From Saccoglossus kowalevskii (lineage: Eukaryota; Hemichordata; Enteropneusta; Harrimaniidae), in contig NW_003123407.1 in assembly GCF_000003605.2 (NCBI RefSeq), positions 372,634-422,162 of the forward strand: DNA of 49,529 bases. The letters are read 5' to 3'. Each line of letters starts with the position of its first letter. Positions within the stretch are counted from its first letter, which is position 1. This document shows, one piece after another, positions 4,501-31,995 of this stretch. Under the pieces are notes generated by a model. The model made no database searches. It saw nothing but the letters and a program-made list of their open reading frames with translations, and was not told where the DNA came from. The position numbers were made by a program, and so were the translations under genes.

Positions 4501-7500
4501 TTAGAATAGATTTAGCGAACTTCTTTGTGTGCGGTCCAGTCAAACTCTGGTGGCAGCCATGTTTGTTTTTATTATTAGAGTACGCTTACGCGCATAATCA
4601 TTCCATATTTGGAATTCGCATTTCCTAATATGTTAGGATGAAAATACCCCGTAAAATACAGCAAAATTACAACACGCTATAATTTAGGGCGTTACGGTGA
4701 CGAATGTATAATAATACCAAATATTATTATGTAAATATTGTTAAAATGAAAAAAAGAAGTTTGTATACATAGCGTAGCTCACTCTATTGCCAATCGCCGA
4801 ATGACAAATAAGTATTTCTTTTCAAAAGTCAAATACTTGTAACGGAAGATTCGTAGCTTGTCCCACGGGTTTCTTACAAGGTTAATCACCCACTCTCGCA
4901 TTCCCTTCAATGTGTAGAGCCTTTAAAAAGCCAAAAGTTTTAAGCATATTTTATTATGCACAGAAGCTATTGACAATTAAACAAATTATTGAAAAAAATG
5001 TGCGGTTGATATTTTTTACATTTATGGTTGATGCAGTATGTGATTGACAAACAATCAATATATGGTGCGGTTTGTACGTACTCAAAACATCGGCCCACAC
5101 CCAACAAATGCAAAAAAACACTTTCCAATTTGTTCATGAACCTGTGTCTTTGTGGTCTTTTTGTGTTTAGTCACGTGTCTTCCACATTAAACGTCTCCCT
5201 CACTTGGCAAATTCGGCGTTGAGATTACATTTACCATATGACGCAGTTCAATTTGTGAAATGAATTTTAGTTAGGATAATTCACGAATCATTCACAAATC
5301 AATTAATCACTAGTCAATTAATTTCAGACGAATTGTGGATATTTATTTATTGTGGATATATGAGGCATTGTGTAAAATAATTTTGCAATAGTCACGCTAC
5401 TTTCTAATTACAATAAATTTTAATTAAATGCGAGAGGTTCGAATAGTGCAAGATTCCTGGAGGTGTACCTAATTTCATTTTGTTCTTCTAAGAAATACAC
5501 ACTCACATTACACGCTCTTTCAATTTCAATTCAACGCTTCTCAGCAATACAGTTCACTCTAAGACATCATTGTTTCACTATACCACGTGATTCTCACATC
5601 GCGTTTCCTACGCCCACATCGGCTTACATATGCAACATGCTATTTTCTAAAATGCTACCCCCAATTACTATTGGACAAATGTTCGTAATAATGTACGATG
5701 CACTGGTGTATTTATGGAATAATAAACAAATACGGCAATGTGGATACGACGAATAAAATGATAAATATAAATGTCCTTTCTTGACAGAGATGGGTAGATG
5801 AATGTCTGCGCTGGAATGCATCACACTATGGAGGCCTTAACAGTATAAGCATACCAAGTATTGATATATGGCAACCTGATATAACATTGTTTGGAAGGTA
5901 GCTGGTTAAACAAATAATGTGGCGCTAGAATGGACAGATACATATTATTATGATTAAGTGACTCTAATTCATATCGTTGTATCATCCAAACAAATGCACT
6001 TAATTGATGACCCAATAATTTTATATTTTTGTAGTATTGACAAGGAATTTGATAGACGCCTATACACAGATGTCCAAGTCAGCTCAGACGGAAGTGTGTA
6101 CGCACCTCAACCAATGGTTTACAAAGCATCATGCCCGATAGACGCCACCTATTTTCCGTTTGATCAGCAGGAGTGCGTCCTGGAATTTGGATCATGGAGC
6201 TACGATGGGTCGGTAATAGACCTTGAAATTAATCCCGCATCCGGGTCCTTGAGTAATTACATACCCAATGGTGAATGGAATCTTATGGGAGTGTCGGTCA
6301 TAAAGCACGCGGTGTACTACACTTGCTGCCCACAACCCTATCCTCATATTACGTACACTTTTGTCATGCAACGTCGGCCTTTGTTTTATATATTCACCAT
6401 ACTCATGCCAGTTACTCTCATGTTTTTTTTCATTCTCGTCGGATTCTACCTGCCTACGCAATGCCGAGAGAGAATGACTATATTTGTCACTGGTATGCTG
6501 GCAGCAATAATGTTTCTGTCCCTAGCAACTAAATATCTACCTTCTACGTCTGATTCCATGTCTTATATGCGTAAGTTGATGTACTTGAGATAATTAATGC
6601 ATGGAAGGGTGGGGTGACGTATTGAAATTGATGAATTCGAAATATTGGAATATGATAATTTTAATGTCTGCTTTGAAGTTGCTGTACATTAAACCACTAT
6701 TTATTGTCTAGATTGTGAAATAAGTATATTCGATTGTTTATTCGACTTGTAATTACATTCGTAAACTTGTGGCCGTATGTACTTTGGCCGATGACGTCCA
6801 AACTTTAGAAATGCCTTATACATCCCAGGAAACATATGCACATACATTTGCCTTGTTATTCGATTGAAGCTAGCATAAAGATGACCATTCAACCATGTAT
6901 ATATTTATAAATGTTATATCTGACGTTATTGAAATTTAGTTACCTGTGTACTGTGTTCGTTTCATGGTCCAATTTAGAGCAACATAAATGCTGCTAATCT
7001 AGTGTCGGAAATCATCAAAATAAAGAGTTACTACAATTTTAGAACCGTATCTCGGCCATGTAGGGATATACTTTGTTTGTGTATATATATTGAACATTAT
7101 CCGAGCTTGGTGTACGGCATCTCTCAGATCGCATTTAAATGACCGAATGGCGACCTTTTAGTTTTAAAAAATGTTGTTCTATTACTTCAGTTCAGTTAAG
7201 TTCAAAGCAAACTTTATACATAGCTAATTTATTTTTAAAATTATCAATCAAAATGACTTACTGATGCTATTTGAGCTTGCTATTGCATGACAGTTATGTT
7301 TCGTTTTATGTTTCTCTTTTTTTCAATAACTAACATCATTTGTAAACTTTGAACCGGACTACGTAATAATTGTGTTCGTGAGTGATTGTAATTTTGTTTA
7401 TTATTGTTTGGAACTATAGACTACAAGTAACCAATCATTACTCGAGCTAATTTGTTAAGTTCTGTGCAATTAAGCATTTTCGAAATCGACAATTTATGCA

Positions 7501-9209
7501 GTAACGTAAATCTCAAAACTTTGATTGGTTCACGCGTATACGTAGAACACCAATTGCAATTCTCACAATGTTTTTGTACACTCACCATAGAATTGTTCTT
7601 TGCTTAGCGTTTATTCATCTCAAGAGGTGAATTTAATTGCCACTCCATTAGTTATTTCTCATATTCTGAATTATAAACAAGTGTTCCGGAATGACAAAGC
7701 ATGTCATATTATTGAAAATTTATAGATATTTTTGCAAATATAAATAAATATAACCACCGAAACCTAATCTGCGTAAGCTGTTTAATAATCTTAGCATGTG
7801 CCGGTATCTGTTTAAACAATACATTAAGGTAGAGATGCATGTTTGTGGGCACTTGAGAGTGAATTTTTTTTTCTTTGCTTTTTATTATCCAAACAGTCTT
7901 GGCTATGGACTGTTAACATTTTGTAGAATATTGAATAGTGGAACATACTCAAAAAACGATTTTAAAATTTAGATAACAGGTGCAAACATTCTCTCTTTTG
8001 AATGCTTAGCAAGATTTAGCAAGACTGTACATAAATAATAAAAAAGAAACGTGGTGAAAAAAAGAAATGACGGGATCTCCATATTATGCACTATATTTAA
8101 CTTTAACAAAACGATAATACATTTAAATTTGGAACTGTTACAGCCATTTTAATTACGAGCATTAGCAAACTTCTTACTGAGTGAATTGTTATGCAAATTA
8201 GCAATTATCTCAGCTTCTTATTTGAGCACATCCCAGAATTTTAAAACAAAATAGCTCCTAGACGCTTTAACCTTTTGTTTTGAAATTTTCACAAATGATT
8301 GACAATGCATTTATCTTCAAAACGCCGTCGGGGCATTGCTTTTTGTTGAACATTGGGCTGCTGCCCTGCAAAATTGACAACTGGTAGACAGTTTTCAAGA
8401 CGGCGCTTTCTTCATAGTAAACAGATGTACCCACAAAACAATTTTGACAGGAAACAGAAGAATGGTTTAGGAGCTAATTTTTTTTAAATCACTTTTGACC
8501 AAAAAAGCACATTTTTGTGCATATTTCAAACTACAGTGTCCATAACAAAAAAATACTAAAATAATTTTAAAATTCATACAATAAGCTTTCCGAAAATATA
8601 TAGTTTTGTGGACAAGAGAGGGCATCATGGTTTCCTAATTAACTAATTAAAATACCTGTCAGGTAAACTACATCTCTACCTTAAATGAACTTGTCATACA
8701 TTTCTGTACGGAATTGACTAGAGAAATGTGGTTTACATACTTTAATAAACCTTATTATTCTTCTTTGTTTCACAGAAAAATACATGTTGACTACTATCGG
8801 ACTGTCGGCATTATCTTCAGTTCTTACTGGATTTTCCGTAAATTTACATTATCAGACATGCGACGCTGCACCAGTTCCAGGATGGCTACGAACTTTTGTA
8901 TTTAAATATCTGGCTGTTATAGTTTTGATGCCTGGTACTGCAAATAAATATTTGAATGTGACAGACTATTCGAAACACGTCGAAGGTAAAGAAGACCACC
9001 GAAACGACAATATGATTAGTAGAATGACTCGAAACACTACTATAATGAACAAGTTCAACAGAAATCGACATCGCGCTTTTGAGTGGCAGATAGTGGCTAG
9101 AGTGTTCGACAGATTATTTCTCTTCTGCTATCTGTTTGGATATACATTTTTTACCGTGGGTCTATTTTTATATTTATATAATAGTGGTACGAGATTTGTC
9201 TATCACTAA
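1506..9209 (+). CDS. Nicotinic acetylcholine receptor, alpha-type subunit (6 exons)
   Basis: Exons are 1506-1563, 3023-3165, 3763-3807, 5788-5897, 6035-6570 and 8776-9209; all introns are GT-AG and the total is 1326 bases, 441 residues. The protein is a Cys-loop ligand-gated cation channel subunit of the plasma membrane. A signal peptide (about 1-19) is followed by the ligand-binding domain with loop D Trp (VWVGLRW), loop A WQPD, the Cys-loop C152-C166 (13 residues between), loop B WSYDG (173-177) and loop C YYTCC with vicinal Cys 216-217, which defines an alpha-type subunit. M1 (about 235-256) has its conserved Pro. M2 keeps the -1' Glu (264) and 9' Leu (274), so it should be cation selective. 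M3 and M4 follow, with a short intracellular loop. Oddities: 20' is Lys (285), 12' is Ile, and the loop A Tyr is Phe. The 45-base and 110-base exons are typical of the family. An AATAAA lies at 9271. Ligand and subunit partners cannot be told. Confidence 0.95.
4561..4712. repeat. Dispersed direct repeat (also near 48807)
   Basis: The block containing aatcattccatatttggaat, followed by tttcctaatatgntaggang and gttacggtgac, recurs at 48807-48918 in the same orientation. This copy has about 28 extra bases. It lies in intron 3 of the receptor gene. No ORF beyond short frames; probably two members of a dispersed family. Confidence 0.8.
7824..8684. mobile_element. TTAA-flanked foldback element (non-autonomous)
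   Basis: Inverted ends of at least 14 bases read TTAAGGTAGAGATG at 7824-7837 and, inverted, at 8671-8684. Both outer edges are TTAA, the target of piggyBac-type insertion, though the TIR does not start like classical piggyBac. Subterminal inverted similarity is visible inside (tagctcctag near 8251 against taggagcta near 8467). There is no ORF. It lies wholly in the last intron of the receptor gene and does not touch a splice site. Confidence 0.6.
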
Positions 9210-12912: not shown

Positions 12913-15900
12913 CTACAGTGAACAAGCGGGGATGTAGTCAACTTCTTTTGTTGTACTGTGAAAGAAAATAAAGAAAAAAGTAAGCATTTTACTCAATTAC
13001 AAATTAAAAAAAATCATAATAGAACATTCCCATAAATCGTTCCTTCAGTGAAATGTAATTTATCGTTGCACCAAAATGACTTATATTGGTGAATCAATGT
13101 CATTTAAATTGACTCCTGTATCGTTGTGTAGTCATTAGTCATTTGTCATTAGTCATTTACAATACTGTACAGACGAGTCAATTGAAAACTCTGAATACCA
13201 CAACAAATTGAAAACTGAAGTTTCATATTTGTTATGTTTGTGTTATGTGCTCATGCCACAAGGATACCGAAAATAAAAAAAAGAAATTGTTAAATATACA
13301 TATTTTGAGAAACAAAGTCAACAACTTTTTGTTCTCATTTAACTATGCTTGTCGATTATTGTCTCCGTTGATTTGTTAATTATAGATTGTTAAAACATTG
13401 CATTGCACTTTTTCATTATATAAAATGAAACGTTTTCTCCGGTATTGCTTTGTTTATATGCGCAGTTAACAAGATCAGTCGTGCAAAATATGCTTCTAAG
13501 AAACTCGACGAAAAGAGTAGTGTAAGGAAATGAACATACGGAACACGGACGACTGGACCCAATTCCTCGTCGGTACCAGGCATGAGAGCCGTCCCACCAT
13601 TCTCTATAGCCATATTACGAACAATAGCTGCAATAACGTTGTTCGGAGCATCTGGACAGTGACCACGAACGATAGCCGTCACGCCTGAATGGTAATTTCA
13701 AACAATAGTCTATTGCAAGTGATTCATGTAAAACTATTTTTGCACCGACATCATGAGGTAAATGTAGACTGTACGTACAAATTTCTGAGGATACAATGTG
13801 AACTTACCTGCCACATGTGCAGAAGCATATGATATATCCGGTTCGCTAGTCGCATAGTAATCTACTCTCGCAGTGTCATTGAAGTCAATTGACGAACTCC
13901 AAATATCTTCCATTGGTGCCCAAAGTTCAGCGCATTCGCCATAGTTGGACAGTGGGGATTTATAATCCAGTCTATCAACGCCGCCAACAGCAATTATCTG
14001 CAGGAAACCACATTGTATATTTGATTTTACCAACCCTTCTCAGTTGGAAAACTGCTAAAGATATCATTTGTTTTTATGCGTGGGCTAATATGATTTGCTT
14101 TACCTGAATTCTACACCTTTGATTGGTGACGTGGTTCGTAGGCGAGGATAGATTGAGAAAAACACAGGAGGAAGTGTTCTATTTTTCTTACTTGCTATTT
14201 TTTTGTTCTGCGATTATTAACACAAGTAGTACGTACAGCATGTGATTTATTTTATCAGATTAGTGCAGTACAGTTGGGTAATGAATGGCGATTAGACAAA
14301 TGAAAAAAAATAAATATATATTGAAATATTACCCGTCTTATTGATTAATAACATGATGTGAAAATGATTATCAAACCAGTAAATGGGCAATCTATTGATT
14401 TAAATAGGCTACGCGGTGGATATAACGATCTATATTCAACTTTTATCCTACGATATATTCCTAGCTTGCTGAATTCCGTTTAGAAAAAAACAAATCTTGA
14501 TTTAAGAGTGTTTTTAACTAAACCAGATCATCTAGAACACCACAATTCTTACACGTCTTTTAACTAATTGTGAACGCAATCGGTGGATAATTACATCAAC
14601 ATAACTCTCAGCGCAGCAAACGCATACTTATCATTTTATGAATATTTATAATGTTGAATCCACGTCATTTTCAAAAAAGTTCCAATGCTATTCAATCGGC
14701 AAAAAAACAAACAAACAAAAAAAAAAAAACGTTTCAGTTCAGTTTGAATTGTGAAATTTATAAATATTTATAAAGATAAAGGGAATGCCTTTATTGCGCT
14801 AGGAATATAATATAACAAATTCAATTCAATTCTGGTTTGTTTATTTGAGTTGATAAATTGTATAAATAAAATGTACACAAATAAATATATAAATAAATGA
14901 CTCACACCCTCAGTTTCATACATTCTACCTGGGGTGAAGTTAGTACAGTTTGTTTGATTTCCCATTCCTACATTGACAACTACTACAAGGTCGTTTGCTA
15001 CCATTTCATCAACTAGGTTCTCCACCACATCCAGTAATGCTGGATCGAGTGTAGCTACGTCGAACCACATACCTCCCAGTGCCACACCACGAAGATAATT
15101 TGTGGGATTCAAGGTTTTTCTGTTGATATAGTCATCGACAATTGCTTGCATTCCTAAAAGAAGAGGAAACATGTAAATTATAAATGCTAAAAAAACATTC
15201 TTTCTCCCTGCCGTTTAAATGTACAATGCCTCAATTTTACAGCAGACAAGTTTCACAACTAAACTCTTGTTAGAAAAACTAGAGATGAAACATCGGGAAA
15301 TACGCGTGTTCGATACGCAATGATCAAATGTGAGAATGGATGTAACATCGAAAGAAACATTCATGGTTTGTCTAGTGTATGAATTCCAATGTATAGGCAT
15401 ATCCGTTTATTTATGCTGTACTTGTATCTTAAAGAAGCCTTATGGCACAAGAGTATTTGAGTATTTACTTGAAAATGTCTAATATTTTGCTCTCCAAATT
15501 TTATTTTATTTACGTTGCTAATGTTTCGGCAAACATAGGGTGATTGTATCTCGGGGGTTGTTTATTAATTTTCGTACCTTCAATTAGATATGTGCCATTT
15601 AAGTTTTGATAGCTTGGATCGGCAGTAACTCGAACAGTAGACAATTCGACACCAGCGGCAGCTCCTGTATATGAACCACCAACTACGCCAGATAACATAG
15701 TACCACGGCCATCAGTATCCTGACCTTGAGGCTGCAACAAAACAGTCAATGCTGAATTCATAAGTCACATTTATAGCGGGGGAGTCATCACCTGCGCATG
15801 CGTCAGATGGCCATAGCGTGTCATTGTTTACAAACAAGCGTCTACCCACGAGCCTTTGCGTTTTTAGCGTGTGTTGTTATCGTCGCTTGGGACTCAATTC

Positions 15901-18549
15901 CAGCACATGCGCAGGTGACGACCCTACCTCTTTAGGTGCAATTATTCACACCTGGACCCGAGATGCAAAGAGCCGTTGGTGAACTTGTTTCTATGTTTCA
16001 AAGTGCTCCAATCACCATAATTACATAGCGGGAAACATTAAAGGAAGAAAATATTGTAATTCGATGTGTAACACAATTCGTGTCAGTAACGTAAGGCTAT
16101 TATTATTTTTATTACTATTATTATTATTATCACTAAGAAAAAAATACAATTATGTCTTGATTGCCGTACAGATAAGTTGTGAAATCTTGTGGATGTCCCC
16201 CATAATTTCCAAACGTGCGACAAAATTATATCGTAGTAACGACAGAGCCAATTAGCGGGTATGGGTTTCGTAACATGCTTTGGGTTGGCATTTCGGGGTG
16301 TAATTTGGTTTGTCATTTAATTTGTTGATTTCTCTGAGACTCGTTGTTGAAATATTAATATTTTCGATCAAAAATGTCACTCAACACGAAATGGCAGGAA
16401 TACAGTCTTTTAAATTAGTACAATGTAATATGGGATATCAATGTTCTCTTCTCTTAATTAATAAAGAATTTATAACTAATGGTCGGCCGTCTAAATATGG
16501 CAAATGTTCTTTTGTTTGAAGAAAACACCCAGCTGGAATTATACCACAATAAGTCACTTTATACGAGGGCAGATGCATATTCTTAATAATCGTTTGAATT
16601 CCACAATTTAGAAATTCCCAAATTTGTTCCTGCGTACACATTTTCTTTATATTATAACTTATTGAATTCTAGTCATGAAAACAGAATTACAACTGGCAAA
16701 ATACTTGCAAAATTTGTTAATTTCAAGAAAAAATAAAGCTATAAAATCTTGAAAATGGTCGTTTGATTTTGCGTTCTAATATACAGAACACACGTTACGG
16801 AGTTCGATGCGACGAGTATTGTGCAAGCCTGGTAATAATCTAATAATAACATTATTGTTTCACATCTTCTTAATCCAACTGCTTGGTATAGTATGCTCTA
16901 AAATGGGCATATTGAGAAAATGTATTGCTATTTTCACTATCTTGGAAATATACATGAAGATAAAATACGCTGACATATGTATAATATTATTATGTATATG
17001 TCAGTCTTTTAGACTTTGACATACCACATTGTCTGGGTCGAAATCATAGGTTACTGACTGGCGTATAAGTCCTGGCCCAAAGTTGTTATGAACATTATGT
17101 ATTCCAGTTCCAACAATGTAAACTACAGTACCTGCACCAGTATCTACAAGAAAATAAAACAGAAACCAAAATAAGATTACGCCTGATTGTGTACTAACAA
17201 AAAAAAAGCAAACAAAAAACATGACTATATGATAAATATTACTCTTGTTAATTGATTTATACACATGTATTTGTACGATGCACTTATGCTCTTGTTTTTA
17301 TTCACATTCCACATATCTGTACTAAATCACTTGGTATAATCCTAGCTGTAAATACAAATACACATATACATACAGTGTCGACGCCCAATTGACGTCATGG
17401 TCATGAGTTCGAACACCTTGTTGCTTGTTTATCAATTCGTAATGTTATATTTATTACTCCAAACAATTCCCAGAGAATCAACGACTACATTGTATCCATT
17501 TTACAGATCGCACCATTGTAATCACAGGGTTGTCAGGTGTTGTTACTTAAATTCTTTACAAAACACAATACACATTCAATCATAAAAATTAGAATGTAAT
17601 AACGAACATAATTCAAGAATCAACCATTCTTATTACTAGTCTACCTTTATTTGAATAGAACACCCTATTCACGAATGGTTTGGCATATAACGCTACATGC
17701 GTAGCATGTATTCCATCATGTACAGTGTTACTATCGAATTGTACCACGTATTGTAAATATAAATGTATCTTAGACATCACTCTAAGGCAAATCATGTTTC
17801 CATGCGACCATTAGTTTGTAGCAATCATAGGCGTTTTTCACTTATTTCACAAACGTATAATAAATATAGCATAGAGTACATTCACAACAATTAACCTTGT
17901 GAGATGTTTTTCTCGTTGCTGCAAAATCATTGTCAGTGGCAATGCAGGAAATAGCATTTCAGAGGGTCTACTTTTCAAAATATTTCCGGGGAGCATGCCT
18001 CAGACCCCAGACATCTGGTAAAGTTGCGTCTCCGGCTCGAGGGATGATGAGCAGATCTTACCCTCCCCATGCACAATTTCGTTCCGCCCCCTCTGATTGT
18101 ACAATTAAACACCAAAGGAATACACGCGTCCAAGGACACTGCTAATGCAGAAGACTTTGCTTAGTCCTGTGCCCGACAGGGGTATCTAGACTCAATTTTA
18201 AGGCCTTTTTACGCTCATGTGTGCTAGGTTTATGTTATTTTTTACGCGATCAGTCATAGCGAACTAGTGTTTAATAAATGCGTGCGCGTATGTACGCAAG
18301 TTACGAACGTAAATACGCGTGCTTGTTCACAGGCAGCGGCGTTTGCTATTCGGATTCCTACATACAGTGTACTCCTAATACTGATATAGTTTACTCACCG
18401 AATGGGTCATAATCTGCCAGATCTTTATTCCAGTTTGGCCACACAGGTTTAGTTTCATCCAGTCGATCAATATTCCATGTAACCTCGCCTTCGATGTATT
18501 GATAGGCGGCGGCAATGGAAGCCAACGATAATAATAATACAACACGCAT
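12913..18549 (-). CDS. Secreted subtilisin-fold pseudoprotease, paralogue A (7 exons)
   Basis: Exons on the - strand are 18549-18399, 17143-17025, 15731-15578, 15153-14906, 13997-13808, 13684-13540 and 12955-12913. They total 1050 bases, 349 residues. A signal peptide (1-15) leads straight into the proteinase K-like mature start (TWNIDRLD), with no I9 propeptide. Family landmarks in order: VVYIVGTGI (57-65), where catalytic Asp is Gly62; DTDGRGTMLSG (95-105), where catalytic His is Arg99; a VVVVNVG strand (198-204), where the oxyanion Asn of AAGN is not kept; SNYGECAE (241-248); and SYASAHVAG (280-288), matching the SMATPHVAG catalytic Ser motif, with Ser280 retained. Four Cys remain after the signal peptide (exons 4, 5, 6, 7), probably two disulphides. 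Active proteolysis is very unlikely; a binding or structural role outside the cell is inference. Exon 7 is inferred from a strong acceptor and an in-frame end that paralogue B shares. Without it, exon 6 would read through to a stop at 13416. Confidence 0.88.
15777..15930. mobile_element. Short inverted-repeat element (MITE-like) in an intron
   Basis: Inverted ends share GTCATCACCTGCGCATG-like sequence: left arm about 15777-15802, right arm about 15903-15930. The element is about 150 bp, with no ORF. It is more GC-rich than its surroundings and sits in intron 2 of paralogue A. The target duplication is not clear. Confidence 0.5.
17960..18180. repeat. GC-rich segment, probably a dispersed repeat
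   Basis: This part of the first intron of paralogue A is clearly richer in G+C than the flanks and carries ccggggagcatgcctcagac-type sequence resembling common interspersed repeats. The 71-codon open frame over it on the + strand has no family signature and is not taken as a gene. Confidence 0.3.
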
Positions 18550-18551
18550 TG
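18550..18551 (-). promoter_or_regulatory. Splice acceptor two bases before the paralogue A ATG
   Basis: On the - strand, a pyrimidine-rich tract ending ttttcacag stops two bases before the start codon. The start ATG therefore sits almost at the edge of its exon. A non-coding first exon upstream, or a trans-spliced leader, is implied. Paralogue B has the same arrangement. Confidence 0.5.
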
Positions 18552-19055
18552 CTGTGAAAATTAATAAATAATAATAATAATAATTACGCAGTGTTTCGAA
18601 TAAATGAAGCACTGAATAAAACCAGTCGTTAGTTATATACATAACGAAAAATGTAAAAGAATGCATACCAAGCAGGGTTTACACAGTATTGTGCGGTCCA
18701 CTGTAATTACTAAAATAATTATCCTCAAGCCTCGTGCTATTGATATAGTCAGTGGAGACTGTCATGGACAGATGTTTTCACAAAGATATTGCTTATGTAA
18801 TTTATGTGATACAAAACAGCTGCACGATCGGAAGATACGATGCAGATACCCATATGGTTTGTAAATGTGGATAGTACTTGTAGTGAAAAATACGGAATAA
18901 ATATATATCATATACTCATATATTTATATATATGTATATATGGAAAAAAATAGATTGACGTCAAGAAATAATTAACACTCGCCATTATAATACTCAATTT
19001 ATTGTTTCGTGTAGAATGTAATACACAATGACCTTCACCTTGTGAGACGTTACAC
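18552..19055. other. Upstream flank of paralogue A
   Basis: The stretch contains a TAA/ATA-type microsatellite at about 18567-18582 and AT-rich sequence with alternating TA near 18899-18945. A first non-coding exon and promoter of paralogue A should lie here or further up. No clear TATA-plus-initiator pair could be chosen. Confidence 0.35.
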
Positions 19056-19264
19056 TAAAGGCCGGTTTACACAAGGTAATATTTGAAGCAGCGCACCGAG
19101 TACCACATGAGGCAATGCTTCGCCTATAAAGAATACACAAGACATCTAACGATGACGAAGGGCTACAAGGTGCCCAAAATTGCGGCTTGTTGGTCTTAAG
19201 GCGACGTTTCCTGGCCAGTCTTTGTGTGTTGTCTCATAATTGTATACGTGTGAACCGACCTTTA
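19056..19264. mobile_element. Small terminal-inverted-repeat element (MITE-like)
   Basis: Ends read TAAAGGCCGGTTTACAC (from 19056) and, inverted, TAAAGGTCGGTTCACAC (from 19264): 17-base inverted repeats with two mismatches. The 209-bp element has no ORF. The heptamer gttacac abuts the left end and recurs four bases beyond the right end, compatible with an eroded target duplication. The superfamily is not certain. Confidence 0.6.
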
Positions 19265-20100
19265 ACCAGTTACACCCAGTGTTGTTCACGCGAGTTGAAG
19301 ATAAGTACTTAACGCATAATTACTCACCACTAAACACATGCGAGATAGAAGGGATGAGGCACACCCGTGTCTATTAAGTGTGTTATCTAATCAATAACTA
19401 TTTTTGGAATAGTAGTTTTAATGTTGTGCGTGACTGAAATTGGTGTATCCGATGGCAAGTTAATCCAATACTGCAGAATAATAAAACGAAATGAATAATA
19501 TTGTCGATATTGTTGGTTTTGCGGTCCCCTAAAAAAATATGCTGTATTTTCGTTCATCGAAATTTGTCAACAATTGTGTTCTGTTTCGAACATTGTGTGC
19601 AGTTGATCATACAAATCAGTTCCCATCATGCATTTGTGGAGAGGCATTTCCTGTTTGCTGAAATTTTATGTATTTCAACTATATCCATACCAATTAGAAA
19701 ACGTGTTAGGGAATTGTGTCAGTACAGTACTTCAACCCCGCACAACAACCCCGTTGAAGCAACAATGATGACGTTTGCAATAAAATTAAACTATAGACAA
19801 AATAATTGTTATACTTTTTGATAGCTTCAATTGCACCTAGTAATCGCTGATATGACGGACAAAGCCACTAATGTCAGCCAATCACGACGATGCGAGAGTA
19901 ACGGTTAGTATTCTGTACGCTGCGATCTATTTGAAAGTAAGCCTCCAAGACCCGTTATTTTTTGATTGATATAATAAACGTCAGGTCTAACGTCAATTTA
20001 CAAGATCCGGAAGTATTGTCGGTCACGTGACGATCAATGCCAGCTGCCAGCCATTCACGACAATGCGCACATATTGTTAGTCAAGAACGATGAATGGCAG
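19265..20100. other. Intergenic stretch before the minisatellite
   Basis: No exon seen. The 106-codon open frame at 19501-19821 on the + strand lacks any family motif, and its composition matches the surroundings. Degenerate copies of the following 40-bp unit appear from about 19870 onward. Confidence 0.5.
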
Positions 20101-20540
20101 TACTGTTAGCCATACACAATGACGTCACGGTCAGTGCCAGTATTTGTTTGCCACCCACAATGACGTCGCGGTAATTGCCAGTATTGTTAGCCATCCACAA
20201 TGACGTCACGGTATGTGCCAGTACTGTTAGTCATTCACAATGGCGTCACGGTCAGTGCCAGTATTGCTAGCCAGTTACAACGACGTCAGGTCAATGCCAG
20301 TACTGTTAGCCATCCACAATGACGTCACGGTAAGTGCCAGTACTGTTAGCCATCCACAATGACGTCACGGTCAGTGCCAGTATTGTTTGCCATCCACAAT
20401 GACGTCACGATCAATGCTTGTACTGTTAGTCATCCACAATGACGTCACAGTCACTACCAGTACTGTTAGCCATTCACAATGACGTCGCGGTAAGTGCCAG
20501 TACTGTTAGCCATCCACAATGGCGTCATGGTCAGTGCTAG
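20101..20540. repeat. 40-bp minisatellite, 11 units, each with a CRE-like site
   Basis: Unit starts (tactgttagcc or close variants) fall at 20101, 20141, 20182, 20222, 20262, 20301, 20341, 20381, 20421, 20461 and 20501. The unit is 40 bp, occasionally 39 or 41. Every unit carries a TGACGTCA-type palindrome: six are exact and the others are TGACGTCG, TGGCGTCA or CGACGTCA. Degenerate half-units flank it on both sides. The array lies about 1.6 kb upstream of the paralogue A start codon. CRE is the CREB/ATF binding site; that the array regulates anything is inference. Confidence 0.9.
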
Positions 20541-22927
20541 TATTGTTAACAAGTAACGACGATTGACAGTGCCGTTATCTTCGTTCAGGTGCGATGAACT
20601 TGCTAGAAACTTGTACGTGTTAAGTTTATGGTATTTTTCAACTACTTAAATAGTAAATAAACAAAATCCTAAATATAATTACGCCTGTATTTAATTCTTA
20701 CTTGTAATAGTTCCACAACCTGAAATCATTTAAATGAATAAGTCTGTCGGCAATATACATCAATGATCAATTTTATAAAATAGATAATGCAAGCGATGTC
20801 GCGAATGACGTACGGTCCTGCTACGGGGTACATATTTTCCCATGAGATTGTGTCCAGATAGTATTGTGAGCCAGAAATTTCGCCCGCGGTAACTGACTAA
20901 AATACGTTTAGTGCGGCTTCTACAAAAGTTATCATAAATTGTGTTGTCATTTGAAGCAGTAAAGGTAAGAAGATTCCACGCTGTTGTGTTGTTACCGATA
21001 CATTGGAAAGTTCGTAACATAAACATTGTCGTATTGGAAAACCTCGAATAAAACATAGTATGAAAATGAGTGGTACAGAAGGAATATACGTCTGATTTGC
21101 TGCCCCAATTTCAACGCTGAGGTCGTCCTGGCCATAGTGAATCGGCAATATATACTATATATACAAATCCTATTTCTAAAGACAGACCGACATAGTATTA
21201 GTACAATTTAGCTAGATGGTTTGGCTAGTATCCAGTTTGTTCAAGTTGTTTGCATTCCGGCATTTCCCCACACATCATCCTGTTAGGGGTGGATATTTGT
21301 AGAGCCACTATTTCCATTTTCACATTGTAACTATTGATCACAGGGGTACCCCTGTTTTATCAGGTGTGCAAGTAAACTTATACATATTCAGTGCTTTGCA
21401 GCATATATGACTATATATGAGTACTTCTAAATAGCGTTACAAGTGGAGCATTTCCAATGTTTTTCTGTATAAAAGTCAGAAATGACTGAGATAAAAATGG
21501 AATGACTATTTTGTAGATCTAGTATCTGAATTGAATGTAGATTACCGTGGCTTTTGAAGATAAATGTGATTACCTACCCACAACACATGAGTTGGCACGC
21601 ATTTTCCAACCAAGGTCAGCTGTCATTTAAATATGTATTGTCACATGTGATCATGGCAATCATAATAACAACTGAGATGTATATTGTTTATGCACATGTC
21701 TACAAACACGCTGCTGTTTGATTGGTCTGACTACTCAGTGTTTAGGCTGGATAAAATCTTCAGGTCAAAAGTATGACAAGAAAAAGTATTGCCAGCCAAT
21801 TAGCTCCCAATTAGAAAAAAATAATTGTAGTATAGTGAATGAGGCTGGCAGTATGTATGCATCTTGATTGACCCATTTGAAACCCTCACCCGTTTATTAC
21901 CTGCCCACATCATGTTGTGCATGATGTACCCGGCGAGACACACAGTTAACCTTGTATTCGCCAACCCACTTTTGAAAATTTAAAAACGTTGAGTCACCCT
22001 GTAAATTGAACGACGGTTAAGAAATCACATCGTGTATGTCACACTGACGTCTAAAATGTCTAACATCAACGTTACTGGGTGTAAGCATTCTTTAGTCAAT
22101 GTTTTGTTATAATACCCAAAACCTTGCTAATAGAAATGTGCATAGAATCATTGGAAGAAACAGTAGAATTGCCATGTGATAACTGTCATAAATTCAGGGC
22201 TCATACCACTAATTGAAACTCCATAGACGACAATGTTAACATATGACGAGATTGCTATATGAAAATGATAAACAAAGTTGAAAACATAGCTCAAAAATGG
22301 GAAATCAACATGACAGTAATCAACCAAATAAAAAAAAAACATGTTGGCCAGCTCAAACTCTTGCAAATCTCAGGTAAACAAGAAACACCTACTTTTTTGG
22401 ATTGCAACCAGAGAAATCACTGGGAAAACACCAAGATTAGAACATCCAAATACATACAGAATAAACCCACAAGTACACAACCGCCAATTAGTAAACAAAA
22501 GAGCACACGTTAGTCTCACCTTTGACCCAGGTGATCACGCCCTCAACCAGGGAGCACCCGAGAAAAAAATATTGATAAAAATGTCATTGGTTCTTGCAAG
22601 GCATTTAAATTACGAGCAGCGATTGTTTGATTGGTGGTGAGACGTTAAGAGATATAAGAAGGTTTAATAAAGTTCTTGTTGATCTTGTATATGATGGAAT
22701 ATCATTAGACGAGAAATTTCCCATGCAAATTTAAATCCTGGGAGTTATTTATCAAAATCTACCACTTGGAGGCGCCCTCTACCCAGACAATTAGTTGTAG
22801 AAATTGGCAACATACACACTCAGCATAACATCAAATTAGTGGCGAAGCTGAGGGATGATATCACGACCTACCTACGAATAAATTACACAAACAGATTAAA
22901 CGTTTGTTGAACATTTATTGTTTTCAA
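20541..22927. other. Intergenic stretch
   Basis: No supported gene. Open frames of about 70-100 codons occur on both strands (20760-21148, 22148-22640), but none shows a family motif and none has convincing splice signals at both ends. A perfect 16-base palindrome, acaggggtacccctgt, lies at 21341-21356. Confidence 0.45.
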
Positions 22928-24591
22928 TCAAATATTATGTTGGCACATTATACTGCTATAATTGATCAGAATATGTTCGGTAATAGTAAACACGCAATTG
23001 TTGTAAACAATTCTAGCTCCAGCGTCTTGGGTGTTTAGCTCATGGATTCCAAAATCCACAAGGGATGACGTGTCGGAAAATTCATTAAGGTCGACGTTTA
23101 ATTGCTTGGAGGTTGTAACAGCTGCGGTACCATTCAAAATATCGCTTACTTTCTTCTCCTGGTTCTGTGTTGTGCGTTTATAATTGCGAACACCTGTATC
23201 TTGTCAAGATAATTTAAATTTAATTAAGTTTTTCATGTGACCATGCATTCATTTAAAATTCTTTGAAAAATAAACCAGTAAAAACGTGCCTTGCTACTTT
23301 CCTTAGTTAAGTTAGTTTACAGTGATAACAATATATTAATAATGTTCAAGTTGGTAACCTTCTACTGAGCGGTGTCCTGCCCGTTCCATTATGAGTTGCT
23401 CATCAACACCATGCTCATAAAGACTGGTCGCAGCTGTAGCACGTAGACTATGGTTCGTAAAGTTTCCAACGATTCCGGCAGATCGTAATAAATCTGGCAC
23501 CACGAGTTGGATAGAGTTGTAACCCATTTGCTGCTTAGTAAACCATATCTTGTCGGATTCTTCGTATTTACGCCGGGGTTGCAGGTAGTTTGTTTCCCTC
23601 AGGTGGGCAGAGTGACGTGTACTTCTTGTACATTCTAATATGGCATTTGCATAATGCATTACCTCCTTCCGTCTTACTCTGCGATGCTTTAGACCACCTT
23701 GTTTGCTTTTCGACACGTCTTCAACATACTTCAAATGAGGCGTTTCGCCTGGTGACTCGTGTAAAGTGATTTGAGGTAGGTGACAACGTAGGGCTCGATG
23801 TCCCATTCTGCTTTTGAGGCCAAATTGTTTGCTATTCAGAAATACCATAGTGCGAACAAGAACCCGGGGAGAATAGTCTTCTAGAAGCTTTTCCATAGTA
23901 ACGCAGGTTGATCTTTGGTAATTACCACAGCTTGTTTTATTTTTGATCCCAACCCCAAACTGGACAATCTTTTCATTTCTGAATCGAGCACTTCACGAAA
24001 ACCTTGGAATTCTTTATTTGCAGCTCAGAACAACAGTAGCTTTGCAAACCTATGATCAAAGATAACAATGTTCTTGGCGGATAACAATTTCCATCCACTT
24101 TGCGCACCTCCAGAACGAATTTAGTTAACCAATAAGCCAAGTCCATGACGGGCATTACATCGATACAGTCATAAATTTTCACCTTTTCATCAGTCGTTAA
24201 TTCCAGTCGGTTGTTATTTTGTACCATCGCCCATTCATTAAAAGTACGCAGAGCCCACATGTTACGTCGCCTTGTGTTTATTTGGTATTTAATCCTTAGC
24301 GACGCCCGTACAGCAGAATCCGACACTGGGTCGCAAAACCGCCCACTCTGGATTTCCTGCAATACTTTAAAACAAGTTGCATGTAAAGTCAAGTTTGCTT
24401 TTTTTCAATACAAGAATATGATAAACCAGTAAATTGTAGTCACTGAAGTGTGAAAATACGTGTGGAACAGTACCTGGTTCAATATCGACATTATCAAACC
24501 TGAGCTGATTCAAATATTCAGCTGCCTCTATTAGGTCATCGTCGGAAAGTAGGATATGCTTCCATCTCTCCACGATGCGCGTAAATGCAAA
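22928..24591 (-). pseudogene. Crypton/KIAA1958-type tyrosine recombinase, frame broken
   Basis: The - strand reads as one DUF3504/KIAA1958-like protein in pieces: exon 24591-24474; a core from about 24364 to 23359; and exon 23193-22928 ending in TAA. The core shows a CryptonA-like N-terminal helical domain (RNMWALRTFNEW, LAYWLTKFVLEV), then LDSEMKRL, DYSP, KYVEDVSKSKQGGLKHR, NHSLRATAATSLYEHGVDEQ and GHRSVEG. The last exon supplies VRNYKR with the nucleophilic Tyr. The H-x-x-R, GHR and Tyr of the active site are present. The first catalytic Arg (family GLR) is Lys (FGLKS, about 23814). The frame shifts near 24000 and again near 23895 inside continuous homology, so the copy is dead or the assembly has errors. 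No ATG was found for the first exon. The family cuts and rejoins DNA through a phosphotyrosine link in Crypton transposons, and has been domesticated in vertebrates. Confidence 0.72.
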
Positions 24592-25098
24592 CTAGAGAAA
24601 TTTTGGAATTTTACGCACATTCAGCCGATATTACTTAGCCAATCAAACAACTTCAATATTGTGAATACCAAATGTCCGTGGCTTGATTGGTTGTATAAAA
24701 CTAAAATGCATCCAGGTGCGGATGACTAATTCCACAAAATCTGCGTATCAATAGGGGACTATACCATATACTATATAGTCCGGCAGAACTTGTGTTTAGG
24801 TTCGCAACAGAGTCCATAGTTTTTCTTAATGTGGTTTTAGATTGACCACTACCTATATAGCATATTTCAACTTGCTGGCCCTGTGTCAGCATTGGGCAAA
24901 TTCTCCCTAGCAACAAAATGCAAAATGGCTGCCTAGCAACTGAGTAATACCAAGAAAATTCCAACTTGGGAGCAGCAACCATGCAGTTTATTGCACGAAT
25001 CCCCACAAATGTGTATATGAGACACACACGTCATTTTTTGTAACCCAAACTACACACCTTCTTAGCAACGGGATTCAAAATGGTTGCCTAGCAACTAG
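24592..25098. promoter_or_regulatory. Flank with RFX X-box-like sites
   Basis: GTTGCCTAGCAAC at 25083-25095 is a near-perfect X-box inverted repeat (GTTGCC, one base, AGCAAC). Related half-sites cctagcaac occur near 24908 and 24932, and ttagcaac near 25062. The block aaaatggntgcctagcaact occurs twice, about 160 bp apart, so part of the flank is duplicated. RFX factors bind X-boxes, for example in ciliary gene promoters; use here is inference. Confidence 0.4.
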
Positions 25099-25175
25099 GT
25101 CAATTCATGCAGACTTGTTCTTTATTGGTTTGTTTACCACATCATGAACAAACTAGATACTACTATACTATACTA

Positions 25176-25298
25176 TTTTCCCGGCGGAATACACGGGAGG
25201 GAAGTGCTTTTGTGGATCCGTTGGAAATTTTCAAAACTCGCATCACCAGCAGAATTAAATCTGAGTACCAGTACTTCAAACTTGTGAAACAGGAGGAC
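25176..25298 (+). CDS. Possible exon fragment cut by the assembly gap
   Basis: The frame from about 25176 to the gap reads RRNTREGSAFVDP, then a basic, amphipathic stretch (FKTRITSRIKSEYQYFKLVKQ). It is open and richer in G+C than its flanks, which looks coding. The gap removes its end, so neither a stop nor a donor can be seen. No family is recognised. It follows the X-box-like sites by about 80 bases, so it could be a first exon. It may also be part of a transposon. Confidence 0.3.
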
Positions 25299-25348
25299 NN
25301 NNNNNNNNNNNNNNNNNNNNNNNNNNNNNNNNNNNNNNNNNNNNNNNN
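25299..25348. other. Assembly gap (50 Ns)
   Basis: Fifty undetermined bases; the round number suggests a placeholder of unknown true size. Coding sequence appears to run into it from the left. Confidence 0.99.
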
Positions 25349-26808
25349 TTCGCATTACGATTACGGAATGAGTATGGTATTATAATAACAATTTTAAAAC
25401 AAGACAATATAACAGAGAAAGTTTTACAAACGAGTTTTGGACTAGTTATGCATCCGTTTATTCTATGAGGTTTCATATATACAGAACCAACATGTTTTTA
25501 GATATACCCAAATAAAACTCAAACACTGCTCTGAATTATACACTCTCTTCATATGGGATAAAATAAAGGCCATGAAGGGGTAACAGAAAAAATATAAAAG
25601 GACCTATTAGATACTCAAACCATTAATAACACAAATCGCCTGTACTAAAACTATTTGTATTCATAAACACAGACATATGCCCTTGTACTGCAAGTTGCCC
25701 AATGCAGACAGAAAGCCAACAGGTGGTTTGGTGAAGCTAACAACATGGACAATATTTTTGGACAATAAAAAAAAAACTATGGACCCTATTACAAGGTTTT
25801 GCCAAAAGAGCCCTTCCTTCTGCCGGACTAATACATCAATGCTGATATCGTCCACTCGCTTCATTACAAAGGTTTTGGAAGGTTCTATTATGTTTTAAGG
25901 GTTATTTCTCTATAGTAGAGGGACATCCTCTCGTTGTGTGAGTTTGATATCGCATTCCTACCTCGACGATATCCATAATATCGACCTCTGCCTTCGGCGT
26001 CGGTCAATATTATGGATATCGCCTCGGTAGTCATGCGATATCTCACACATATCGACTTTATTTAAGAAGAAATGATGTTGCTAAAAACATAATAAAACCT
26101 ATCGTGGTTAAGTGAACTTTCCAATTTTCAAATGACAAAGATTGATAAACTGTTAATAGGTGTCATTCTACGTATTGCGGATCAGATACACTTTTATTCG
26201 TGTATGTGCAAAAGGATAATGGTATACATTGTCGCAAGTGGTTCTGGAAGAGTTGATCCTTTCCTTTGTATAATGTTTTTGTTAGGGCAGATAGACATAA
26301 AGTTCTCCCATCAGATGAAAACTGCAATGCTTCCATGGTGATATTAGGTAATTGCCTAGGATACAATGCCCGCTCTCTAAAGCTGTAACAGTATAATACT
26401 TGCTACTAACTTAACAATAACTCAATTAACTACCCTTTTTTGTGACGATAAATAAACCCTCAAACGTGACTTTGCATGCGCTTAAAAAACGAAGAACTAT
26501 ATACATGCACAACGATGAACGATGTTGCCGTTTTGTTCGGATACTGAAAACAATTCCCCTGCTATCTTATTCCTAAATGGACGATTTATTGGATGGCTTA
26601 AGTAACCTTAGTTCAGGTTTGAATAAATTCCACTACGTCGTGGCCAGGAATGTGTTTTCTTTTTTAAATTATTTCTAGAATCGTGATTTAGTGTTTTATA
26701 TGGGTTATATGCGTTCTATTCTTTGCGTGTGTTGTGTAATTTTAAACAAATACAAATTCATTATAGATGGATAGATATATTTTAATTACATTATTGAATT
26801 ATTAATAA
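25349..26808. other. Non-coding stretch before the 3' end of paralogue B
   Basis: It contains one foldback element (25935-26050) and otherwise no recognised exon. A tttatt at 26585 (AATAAA on the - strand), about 220 bases past the paralogue B stop, is a candidate polyadenylation signal for that gene. Confidence 0.5.
25935..26050. mobile_element. Foldback element or hairpin, about 115 bp
   Basis: The left arm (25935-25986) and right arm (26002-26050) are near-complete inverted copies. The core gatatccataatat pairs with atattatggatatc, and both outer ends read tgtgtgag/ctcacaca. The loop is about 15 bases. No ORF. The length and structure fit a MITE; a transcribed hairpin is a less likely alternative. 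Confidence 0.75.
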
Positions 26809-29800
26809 TCAAGGCGTGAAGCAAATTGGATGTTCTCCTTTGGACCTGTGAAAAGCAAGAAATAAAAACATTACATTTAACAACACATCTTTTTCCACAA
26901 TTAGCAATGCTAATAATATTGAATAAATATGTTTTTGTTTCTTTGAAACCGCCGAGCACATACTGTTTATAGCTCAGACTAATTCGCAGGTAATTGCATT
27001 ATACATAATATATTATATTATACAAAATATAAGTTTTAATATATTTTTTGTAAATATGTTTTGTTTAATACAAACACAAGAATGTGATAAAGCGGAGAAA
27101 CAAAAATACATACGCAACACGAATTATTGGGCCTAATTCTCCATCAGTGTCAGGCATAAGTGCTGTCCCGCCATTCTCTAAAGCATATTCAATAACCATG
27201 GGTCCTACGAGGTAGTTCGGAGTATCTGGGCAGCGGCCACGTATTATAGCTGCAACGCCTGTATTTACACGCAAGAGAGTGGTGGTGGATTTAGTTGCAT
27301 ACACTGATCTGTCGCATGTAATATCGCAACACAGAAATTGTACATACCATACATTTCTAAATCATGTTTTATGATAATGTTCCGGAATTCAACTTATGTA
27401 ATTAGATAATGCATTTCTATCTTCTCATTGCATTTTATATGATGGATTTGAATAATTCGCTTGCATGTCAGACATTTTAGAGATGTTTGATAAATTGAAA
27501 CGAATCGTTGAGACTGAAATGCATGTTGCTCATATGATAGTGATATTTTTCCGTAATACTTGTTAAGGTATACCTCTGCTCATGAATAGAAAATACCTGT
27601 TTTGATTTGTTTTAATTTTCTAAAATGTACACGTGAGTACGTTACAACAACTTATGTATACATGTACAGGTAACATTTGCCACGTTTGTACAGTGATGAA
27701 AACTACAAGTTTTATGATTTTAATTTATCCCAACCGCTTAATTTTAGACATCTAAAATACTTAAAAAATACTTTGTGTCACCATAAAAGAATATCCTGCC
27801 ACTGTTTTCATCTTCATTAGTAGTTACAAAAGAAATATTGTTTTGTAATTGATTGGAATTATAGAGACAGTAGTTATGCATATTGTGGCAACTACTTAAA
27901 AGATTATCTTACTCACAGTTATTGTTGCATATGAATGTTTTTCTACAAGATACAATGTACTAAACATTATACTGTTTGTCTACATCATACTAAACTACCC
28001 GGCATGTATGTCAATAATTATAGTTGTTGCAGTATTGTATGGCTTCAAAACAGCGAACACTTATATATGTGCATTGAGTGTCGCTCCCTAAAATAAACTC
28101 TACATTGATTAGGTAACCATGTTGACTTAACATGCGATTTGTAAACAGTCAATAAAATTAATACATTATTGAAGAATGACAATTATTTCTCATTTCACTA
28201 CAGGGCATATGAATAATTACCATCCAAATGAGGTCATAGTGACGTCAATTATACGAGCCTAGATTATTGCTTTTTGTTGTATGCAAAATATTTAAATTTC
28301 AGGCTATATATAATATCATAAAATGTGTGTTTCCGGTAGTAGCGCATCATCCTGTCTTGTTCAGCACACTGTACTGCCCCTAAAATGTCATGATTTTAAA
28401 ACAGATCTCATAACCCCAAACTCATATGCACATATTTATTAATGTAGATAATGTTGTATTACCTGCCACATGAGCAAGTCCAAACGCAAGAGTATGATCA
28501 GCAAACGTATAATAGTCTACCCTATCGGTGTCATTAGGATAAATTGCTGAACTCAAAATCTCCTCCATAGGTCCCCATACTTCAGCGCATTCGCCAACAT
28601 TTGACGCATTATCTTTATAGTCTAACATGTTTGTTCCTCCAGCAATAATGATCTGAAATGAGTATATATCAAATATTAAATAATAATTTAATGGTAATAT
28701 GTGCATGAACCGGCTCATCCTATGTGTCACGATATACATGACTTTAGTCAAATAATAGTCATTTGTTAAATAACAATTCCATACCAATCTGAATATGTTT
28801 TTGTTCTTGGAGTATTATTTCAAAAGTCGCACAGATGTTCGATCTGTCAGATCGAGTATGTGACACTAGATGTTATGCTGGTTTACGTTTACAGTAGAAG
28901 ACGCGAAGTAACGCCACCACCAGAGTCGAAGTAAACACATATTTTTTTTTACACTGCAATGTCTCACATTTGGAGTGCACACGAGTTAATCGATATAAAA
29001 AAGTCAACATAAAAAATTAGATCAAGTGTGTTTTTGGCATGATGTCATGATTTTGAAAATGACCTAAGAAGTCAATTATAAACTATGTTTGAATAAATTT
29101 TCACTGCCTACTAAAATCTTCATTTATTAATTTTCAATTGTCTATGGATGCCCGAGAGTAAATTTTGATAATTGACACGTGTTCCGTCACACAATTGAAA
29201 GTAGATGTGAAAGGTTCCTCAGCGGACTTAATTGACTCACACTGTTATCTGTATACAGTCTGGCTGGTGTCAAGTCCAAGCAGTCTACCTTATCATCATC
29301 GCCAACACCGCCAATAACTACTAGGTCTTCAGCTACCAGTTGAAGCATGAGGTTCTCTATATCATCTGCATCTGCTGGGTTAGTTCTGACATCAAGTGAT
29401 ACACTCCCGAGGGCGACTCCACGCAAATAATTTGTAGGATTATATTGTTTCCTAAATTTATAGTCATCAAGGATTGCTTGCATCCCTAGAATAAAGGTAG
29501 AATATATAAGTTGGTAAATTTTGTACAAGCAAAATGTTATATAAAAAATTGGATTGCACTAATTCTTATGTCAATTACTGAAATTTAAGTGTATTGACGC
29601 GGTAAGAAAAAAGTATAATTATTACGGCTCACTTTTACACATATCAACGTTCTTGCCTTGCTGTTCCGCAATATTTTGCAGTGCATTGTTATTTATTTTC
29701 CAATTAACAGTAACTTTAGATCAACATATTGTCACTGTCAACGGATTTTTCTTTTCACCCATTTACGTGAACAGATGGTTCCAATACAATTATTGACGGA

Positions 29801-31991
29801 ATATGTTATATATCGTGTCATGGAATGAAATGAATTGTACATACTTACGTATATAAGTAATTATTTACCTTGCAGAACATGTGTAATGTTTGCAGAAGTC
29901 GGATCTGCAGCTATTCTAACAATAGCGATTTCGATATCAATGGCAACTCCTGTATATGACCCACCAACCACGCCAGCCAACGCTGTACCACGACCATGTG
30001 TATCAGCACCTTGAGGCTGCAAAAAAGTTATCAATACCGATGTCTATTAGCAGCATTTAAGGTTTGAATTATATGGACTACATATGGTTTGGAACAGTGA
30101 GATGCGAGTTAAATGCAAATATTACCGGAGACTCTCGGTGTGTGTGGATATAGACTTTGTTATAGTTTTTTATTTATCTTGACACCAGCAACTATCAGTA
30201 GAAATTTAATCCCATGCTCAAGAATTTGCAGTACAAATAACTACGTAAACAACGTGATTATTTGGCTTATACATCATTATTGTATCACTTGGGAGGATAT
30301 AAAACGGATAACGAAATCTAGGCGGCCATTGACGTCAACTTTCAATTGTTTGAAGGTCAATGTTAATTTATGTATACATCACGTGCGACTGTGATAAGTC
30401 ATCAATGTGCTACGCTTTCCTACTCTGTTGACTAAAATAATACTAATGAAAACAAACTATTTCCTGCCTGTAACCTACCATATTGTTTGAATCGAAATCG
30501 TATATTATATTCTGACGTATAGTTCCTGGACCAAAATTATTATGTGAGCCCTGTATTCCAGTACTGAGAATGTAAACTACACTGCCTGCACCAGTACCTA
30601 CAAAACATTCATTGAAAACAACAATAATATTGTTATATAGAAATAAAATTAAAATCACTCATTTTGATGCTGAAAATTTAAATATATTGCAATATTAGTT
30701 TGGGATAAAGTTAACAAAGGGTCCTAAGTGTGACTTGGAAAATATAAAATTACTAAATATTGATAATTTTGAGTGCCGGTTTTGAATTAAAAGTCAGTAA
30801 AGTAATAGAATATGCGTGGTATTGAAAATACTGATTTAAATGGAAGGTTATATAAGACGTATGTATAGACATTTTCGATTTGGTTGAAAACCGAATTAAT
30901 GTTTGTATACAATTATATATAAAAATGTCATCCTTATTTTACTGACTAAACATTAAGGAATTTTGACTATATTTGGACCGACATTAAATCGATAATAACA
31001 TAGCTCCGGAGTAGCCAGTTTTGTATTTTAGAGACTACACCCGCGCTACAGATACTATATTGTATTTGACTGTTTATATGCTTATACAAAGTTTGTTCAA
31101 TAAACAACGATTTAATCAGATCATTTTGTTAAAGTACAGTGTAAAGTTTTTTTCATTATATATTCAAAACACCTAATCAAATTGTTTGCTTTGTTTAGGA
31201 TGTAGTTATATATATATATCAATCAATGTCCAACTTGGGTAATAAAATATGCAACTATGATCACTGAATTGTCTGCCATTTGTCTTCTGTTTACAGCTAA
31301 CATATCCCAGAGAAAAAGCTTTGCCAAGCATACTTTTCAAACGTCAGGTTGCTTTGTTATACCACTAAGATATTTTGAAGACGTCATAAATATGCAGTCA
31401 CGATGAAATACCGAGCTTATGTCAAATTATCGCTTAGATACAGAGATACATACAGCGACACATTTCACTGTTAAAATGAAAGGTGCATCATGTACGAGTG
31501 GACCAATCAGTTGTTAGATTTTCCGATGATGACATGTTTTTAATTTTGCTGCATCAGTTTGTATTGGTACGTTTTCAAGAACGTTTGAATTATAAAATCT
31601 AGTAAACACTTGTTCACCTAAACGGCCGACAAAACAGTTCCACAGAAAAAAAATATAATTTTTCGGTCAGGTAAGACTAAAACAAATATATAACGAATTT
31701 AAATTGTGCTCGTGTTCCATAATTGTTCACATCTTAGCGAAATGTTAACATCACATGGGGGAAATGCTCACATAATTGTACACATGTTTGGCTTCTGATG
31801 TTGCATTGTAAATAGTCTTCGCATAGAACATACTTACTTATTGGGTCATAATTTGCATTTTGGGAATTCCAGTTTGGCCATGCAGCTTTTGCTTGATCAA
31901 TACGATCAAGATTCCATGTAACAGTCTGGTCTTCCACGAAACCGTATGCAGTGGCAACTGTTGCCAACGTTATTAAGATCACAAGACGCAT
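26809..31991 (-). CDS. Secreted subtilisin-fold pseudoprotease, paralogue B (7 exons)
   Basis: Exons on the - strand are 31991-31838, 30597-30479, 30016-29869, 29485-29241, 28652-28463, 27258-27114 and 26845-26809. They total 1038 bases, 345 residues. Intron phases match paralogue A at every junction. The signal peptide (1-15) is followed directly by the mature-type start TWNLDRID; there is no I9 propeptide. All three catalytic positions are lost: VVYILSTGI has Ser63 for Asp, DTHGRGTALAG has Arg100 for His, and TLAFGLAHVAG has Ala278 for Ser. The oxyanion segment (VVIGGVGDDD) lacks the AAGN Asn. Four Cys occur at the same places as in A, including one in the 12-residue last exon, which supports that exon. 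By eye, about half or more of the residues match A. The protein is secreted; its role is unknown, and ligand binding or scaffolding is a guess. Confidence 0.9.
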
Positions 31992-31995
31992 TTTC
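31992..31995 (-). promoter_or_regulatory. Splice acceptor four bases before the paralogue B ATG
   Basis: On the - strand, catgcatttgcag ends four bases before the start codon. It matches the arrangement in paralogue A, so the 5' UTR intron or trans-splice acceptor predates the duplication. Confidence 0.5.

Follow-up and report, generated by a model that had tools for sequence, protein, structure and literature searches.

A family of probable proteinase K-type pseudoproteases in the genome of Saccoglossus kowalevskii

Genes A and B and their relatives

Two genes, here called A and B, lie on the minus strand of a 49,529-nucleotide stretch of the Saccoglossus kowalevskii genome (the window; contig NW_003123407.1) and encode proteins that resemble proteinase K-type enzymes of peptidase family S8 and have lost catalytic residues. 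Spliced from the window by GT-AG sites, each gene gives seven coding exons and an open frame, of 349 amino acids (aa) in A and 345 aa in B, which begins with ATG, continues into a signal-peptide-like stretch and remains open through to the stop codon (Table 1). The original prediction had placed two intact seven-exon genes between 12913, the end of the stop codon of A, and 31991, the start of the ATG of B, and the spliced models bear this out, ends included. Intron phases are identical in the two genes (1,0,1,0,1,2), exon lengths are closely alike, and the four cysteines said to be kept in both copies do stand at matching places. Signal peptides, in these genes and in the relatives described below, were judged by eye, without a signal-peptide program.

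Searches of the genome (572 Mb, 4830 contigs) in which A, B and D served as queries revealed two further intact genes of seven coding exons: C, a close relative (contig 346, 49261-55512, 342 aa), and D, a divergent one (contig 3172, 143948-147429, 351 aa). As the search scored the best candidates only, these four members are a lower bound. In the phylogenetic tree, a branch supported at 100/100 sets A to D apart from the rest, B pairs with C (100/98), and A joins these two (91/84). A and B are therefore a tandem pair by position, as first described, without being sister copies, since B is closest to C on another contig. B and C cannot be alleles or haplotigs, given a synonymous divergence (dS) of 0.36 and a protein identity of 72%. 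D has the family insertion, the cysteine of the tail and the last intron in common with A, B and C.

Fold, catalytic site and selection

Searches with phmmer against solved proteinase K-like enzymes gave expectation values (E) of 4e-18 for A and 3e-16 for B, and a profile built from A to D reached 2e-25, so that the resemblance to proteinase K goes far beyond chance; PCSK9 was among the matches of A (E about 2e-10). A search of the two proteins against S8 profiles, proposed with the first description, succeeded for one of them: Pfam S8 matches A at E = 8e-10 and has no match for B at E <= 1. A genome-wide S8 search listed neither gene because exons were scored apart. A and B have the S8 fold of proteinase K type, with its motifs in order, and structure prediction, another of the checks suggested at the outset, gives the proteinase K fold as the predicted fold of the family. 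A model predicted from the sequences of A and B alone was poor (predicted local distance difference test score, pLDDT, of 40) and was set aside. NCBIfam mycosin models matched all four members; C scored 40 bits where the cut-off is 279, and we take these matches as general S8 similarity. With the proteinase K/aqualysin subfamily of S8, A to D share the fold, the order of motifs and a W..DRID-like mature N-terminus. Two cysteines of aqualysin, which we take to form the second disulfide of that enzyme, fall at or near cysteines of A: one aligns with Cys246, and the other is a single residue away from Cys211. Unlike these enzymes, A to D lack the catalytic Asp and His and the oxyanion Asn, have no prodomain that we could find, and carry extra insertions and a Cys-bearing tail.

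The catalytic columns were read from an alignment of A to D with three intact paralogues of the same genome (K1, K3 and K4) and 14 bacterial relatives. In A, B, C and D, respectively, the Asp column holds G, S, S and G, the His column R, R, R and L, the oxyanion Asn column M, D, E and D, and the Ser column S, A, I and P, while all 17 other sequences have D, H, N and S at these columns. None of the four members keeps Asp, His or the oxyanion Asn and one of them keeps Ser, and every substitution first read in A and B (Gly or Ser for Asp, Arg for His in both, the missing Asn, and Ser in A against Ala in B) is found again in this alignment. Another, intact triad had also been considered; the profile and family alignments restore no catalytic residue at the Asp, His or Asn columns, and this candidate was dropped. 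Hydrolysis by the S8 mechanism needs the catalytic Asp, His and oxyanion Asn, and in their absence it is not expected of A to D.

The losses extend beyond these residues. Out of 69 columns conserved in at least 90% of the 17 other sequences, A keeps 39, B 34, C 37 and D 34. Columns lost in all four members make up 14 of the 27 in the active-site windows and 10 of the 42 elsewhere (Fisher p = 0.02, a value that is only indicative because the windows were set after viewing the list of lost columns). Within the GSG, SLGG, AAGN and GTSMA stretches, positions conserved in the 17 others are often lost in all four members and vary among them. This variation of the replacing residues from copy to copy implies that the old active site is not being held constant.

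Table 1. Coding exons of genes A and B, with positions in the window
Gene	Coding exon	Position	Strand	Features	Basis
A	1	18399..18549	-	Signal peptide and mature N-terminus	Spliced model
A	2	17025..17143	-	YIVGTGI, strand of the Asp motif, Asp to Gly	Spliced model and alignment
A	3	15578..15731	-	DGRGT, His motif, His to Arg	Spliced model and alignment
A	4	14906..15153	-	Family-specific insertion RK..NPTNYLRGV; oxyanion Asn to Met; Cys 211	
A	5	13808..13997	-	Cys 246; ISYASAHVAG, Ser motif, Ser kept, GTSMA context lost	
A	6	13540..13684	-	C-terminal part, Cys 297	
A	7	12913..12955	-	C-terminal tail, Cys 347, stop	
B	1	31838..31991	-	Signal peptide and mature N-terminus	Spliced model
B	2	30479..30597	-	YILSTGI, Asp to Ser	Spliced model and alignment
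B	3	29869..30016	-	HGRGT, catalytic His to Arg	Spliced model and alignment
B	4	29241..29485	-	Insertion RK..NPTNYLRGV; oxyanion Asn to Asp; Cys 209	
B	5	28463..28652	-	Cys 244; LAFGLAHVAG, Ser to Ala	
B	6	27114..27258	-	C-terminal part, Cys 295	
B	7	26809..26845	-	C-terminal tail, Cys 342, stop	

Purifying selection acts among A, B and C. The ratio of nonsynonymous (dN) to synonymous divergence, omega, was estimated by maximum likelihood (GY94) at 0.29 for A-B, 0.31 for A-C and 0.50 for B-C, and a value of 1 was rejected in each pair (twice the log-likelihood difference 57.9, 56.5 and 16.3; p = 3e-14, 6e-14 and 5e-5, respectively). NG86 bootstrap medians were 0.38 (0.29-0.50) for A-B, 0.37 (0.27-0.49) for A-C and 0.48 (0.35-0.66) for B-C. 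Pairs with D were saturated, and omega for D was left out. The intact paralogues K3 and K4, a deep and saturated pair, gave an omega of 0.07, next to which the dead family looks less constrained, yet constrained. Under neutral simulation the frame of B accumulated a mean of 5.3 or 9.7 stop codons per branch, depending on which of the two distances tried was used. Between B and C, dN was lowest in the signal peptide and in exon 2; over the 36 codons that open the mature protein it was not below dS (0.17 versus 0.13). These ratios well under 1 among paralogues, together with two further intact genes without a triad, uphold the view that the genes are maintained pseudoenzymes and not decaying copies. 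Judged from their sequences, A to D are putative pseudoproteases, proteins with the catalytic residues lost and the frame kept by selection.

Intact paralogues, introns and the prodomain

Intact proteinase K-type paralogues were built at three loci, K1 (L045, contig 131), K3 and K4 (L046 and L047, contig 4556), and a fourth was detected in L048 by tblastn evidence only. The last five introns of K1, K3 and K4 lie, as compared by eye, beside the same motifs as introns 1 to 5 of A to D, with phases 1,0,1,0,1 in K1 and K3; the fourth intron of K4 was called phase 1 at a doubtful junction, and the second intron of K1, upstream of the five, is weak. All three paralogues carry a prodomain on two further upstream exons and part of a third. 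Pfam I9 matches K3 (E = 0.002) and K4 (E = 0.004), both under the curated cut-off, and does not match K1. An N-terminal prodomain is generally described as required for the maturation of most subtilases (see PMC6993865).

None of the four proteins A to D was matched by Pfam I9. A whole-genome search with the I9 family also gave no match, a result that carries no information since several exons share the prodomain between them. With the prodomains of the paralogues as queries against the window, L030 and L033, no prodomain exon was found near A to D at E <= 1, the sole match being one of 15 residues to the signal peptide of D. As controls, K1 recovered the exons of L048, K3 and K4 recovered each other's, and the queries' own exons were recovered. 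We rejected missed upstream prodomain exons on this null search, whose reach between paralogue subgroups is limited. Against a missed exon also counts that in A to D the signal peptide runs directly into the mature N-terminus. An acceptor-like TTTTCACAG ends 2 nucleotides before the ATG of A (18550-18551), an acceptor-like CATTTGCAG ends 4 nucleotides before that of B (31992-31995), and a similar AG ends 4 bases before that of C (L030 2458-2461). These sites suggest that an intron lies in the 5' untranslated region or that a spliced leader is added, and their differing offsets argue against an upstream coding join. The motif YEFVEGE of C may, from its likeness to FEYIEED in K3 and K4, represent what was once the final prodomain strand.

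Other coding sequences were recorded along the way. Upstream of A and B, the window holds exons of a neurotransmitter-gated (Cys-loop) ion channel on the plus strand (5958-6590 and 8718-9206; Pfam ligand-binding domain, LBD, 2e-30). Between the two genes, on the minus strand at 23336-24404, lies a tyrosine-recombinase-like element in two overlapping frames (DUF3504 1e-13, Phage_integrase 1e-11, QRICH1 4e-10), and a retroelement has left a fragment of reverse transcriptase (RVT_1 1e-14) on the plus strand at 38929-39375. Elsewhere, a single-frame proprotein convertase-like gene of 588 aa (L001 1024-2790, minus strand) has an intronless coding part and is possibly a retrocopy, with similar sequence spread over several frames in L002 and L005 nearby. 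In the mitochondrial sequence (L144, contig 4830), cox1 lies on the strand opposite to frames interpreted as nad1 and cox2, and COX1 has seven in-frame TGA codons, as under an invertebrate-type mitochondrial code.

Known non-proteolytic subtilases and a proposed function

As A to D are predicted to be, PCSK9 is a secreted animal protein of proteinase K type, and it works without proteolysis. It has a C-terminal domain rich in Cys and His. In A to D (342-351 aa) neither a prodomain nor any further domain was found. PCSK9 is described as having typical Asp, His, Ser and Asn, as cleaving itself and staying bound to its prodomain, and as aggregated once the prodomain is removed (PMC8551645). CspC and CspA of Clostridioides difficile, proteins of the bacterial spore, are presented as subtilase pseudoproteases that serve in signalling without catalysis and retain both their N-terminal prodomain and a jelly-roll insertion (PMC6636752; PMC12880746). 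Two of their triad residues are changed. A to D have no insertion of that size (about 130 residues in Csp). PIMMS2 of Plasmodium, a subtilisin-like protein with a signal peptide that was judged a pseudoenzyme, is reported to have a transmembrane domain and a C-terminal extension, and in P. berghei it keeps the triad residues and the oxyanion Asn and lacks the HGT and GTS motifs (PMC5520436). The family would thus be a pseudoprotease lineage descended from proteinase K-type enzymes, distinct from active peptidases, PCSK9 and Csp. Since CspC, CspA and PCSK9 are non-proteolytic yet bear prodomains, A to D would matter as proteins that lack both prodomain and triad; in the titles and opening lines of abstracts that we consulted, which included few subscription papers, no animal subtilase family without both appeared.

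Four cysteines are common to A to D and sequons are present in each protein, which together with the signal peptide point to a secreted, disulfide-bonded protein. In the alignment, 89 columns are invariant in the four members, and 54 of them (5 in the signal peptide) hold residues shared by fewer than half of the 17 other sequences. Most of RK..NP.NY.RGV, where the helix of model residues 136-156 ends, is among these 54, as are D270 and Y272 in an insertion before the old Ser loop.

On the evidence of this one genome, we put at roughly two in three the probability that A and B belong to a single animal proteinase K-type pseudoprotease family, with four or more intact genes, that binds through a new surface. 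One ancestral animal proteinase K gene would have lost prodomain and catalysis and gained the insertions and the Cys-bearing tail, and would have been duplicated only afterwards. Its products would be secreted and would fold without a prodomain of their own, perhaps aided by putative disulfides Cys211-Cys246 and Cys297-Cys347 (A numbering). They would act stoichiometrically, holding a partner by the family-specific surface and not by the degraded substrate cleft, for which the RK..NP.NY.RGV loop with its helix end, and the insertion that precedes the old Ser loop, are candidates. We infer that partner binding through this new surface is the likeliest function. The fuller proposal, a lineage free of both catalysis and folding prodomain and redeployed through the helix-loop insertion as a multi-copy secreted binding or signalling family, is tentative, and we give it somewhat less than an even chance.

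Several observations weigh against this reading. D has an identity of about 35%, with saturated pairwise dS, and the tree given here includes it although the program warned of its long branch and unusual composition and recommended leaving it out. Fragment E, a lone copy of exon 1 on contig 346 near 70.2 kb (L031 3357-3494), has an in-frame stop, and the omega of B-C indicates that constraint is partly relaxed. In the prodomain control, K1 missed the exons of L046 and L047, and K3 and K4 recovered none of L045's; the search misses the other paralogue subgroup, so a strongly diverged prodomain exon could go undetected. A prodomain could also be supplied in trans, and the invariant family-specific residues could serve folding instead of binding.

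The main rivals are two other uses of the same proteins, both unlikely in our estimate and about equally so. A to D might be competitive decoys or sponges that use the old substrate cleft to capture what the intact paralogues bind, protease inhibitors or substrates; proteinase K-type paralogues with a complete catalytic site do exist in the genome and the overall fold is predicted to be retained, whereas the cleft itself has drifted, with the conserved motif positions described above often lost and different from copy to copy. They might instead have a regulatory role, forming heterodimers with an active paralogue or with one another, by analogy with CspC:CspA, described as such a dimer of pseudoproteases (PMC12880746); here no genomic pairing is seen, and the active paralogues examined sit on other contigs. 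Decay, with the frames open by chance, would fit the lost catalytic residues, the stop in fragment E and an omega above that of the saturated K3-K4 pair, but four intact seven-exon frames, the rejection of omega = 1 in all three pairs and the conserved cysteines and insertions make it very improbable. Least probable of all is hydrolysis by A with its remaining Ser in some unusual mechanism, in a protein without Asp, His and oxyanion Asn and in a family with Ala, Ile or Pro at that position in B, C and D.

If binding through a new surface by a family free of prodomain and triad holds, A to D would be a case from nature in which a proteinase K fold becomes native unassisted by its chaperone. A maintained family of this kind would make the unaided folding of subtilisins, and the use of their fold as a scaffold in animals, testable. 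One genome here offers a natural series for this, with intact paralogues that bear a prodomain, four dead relatives and introns common to both.
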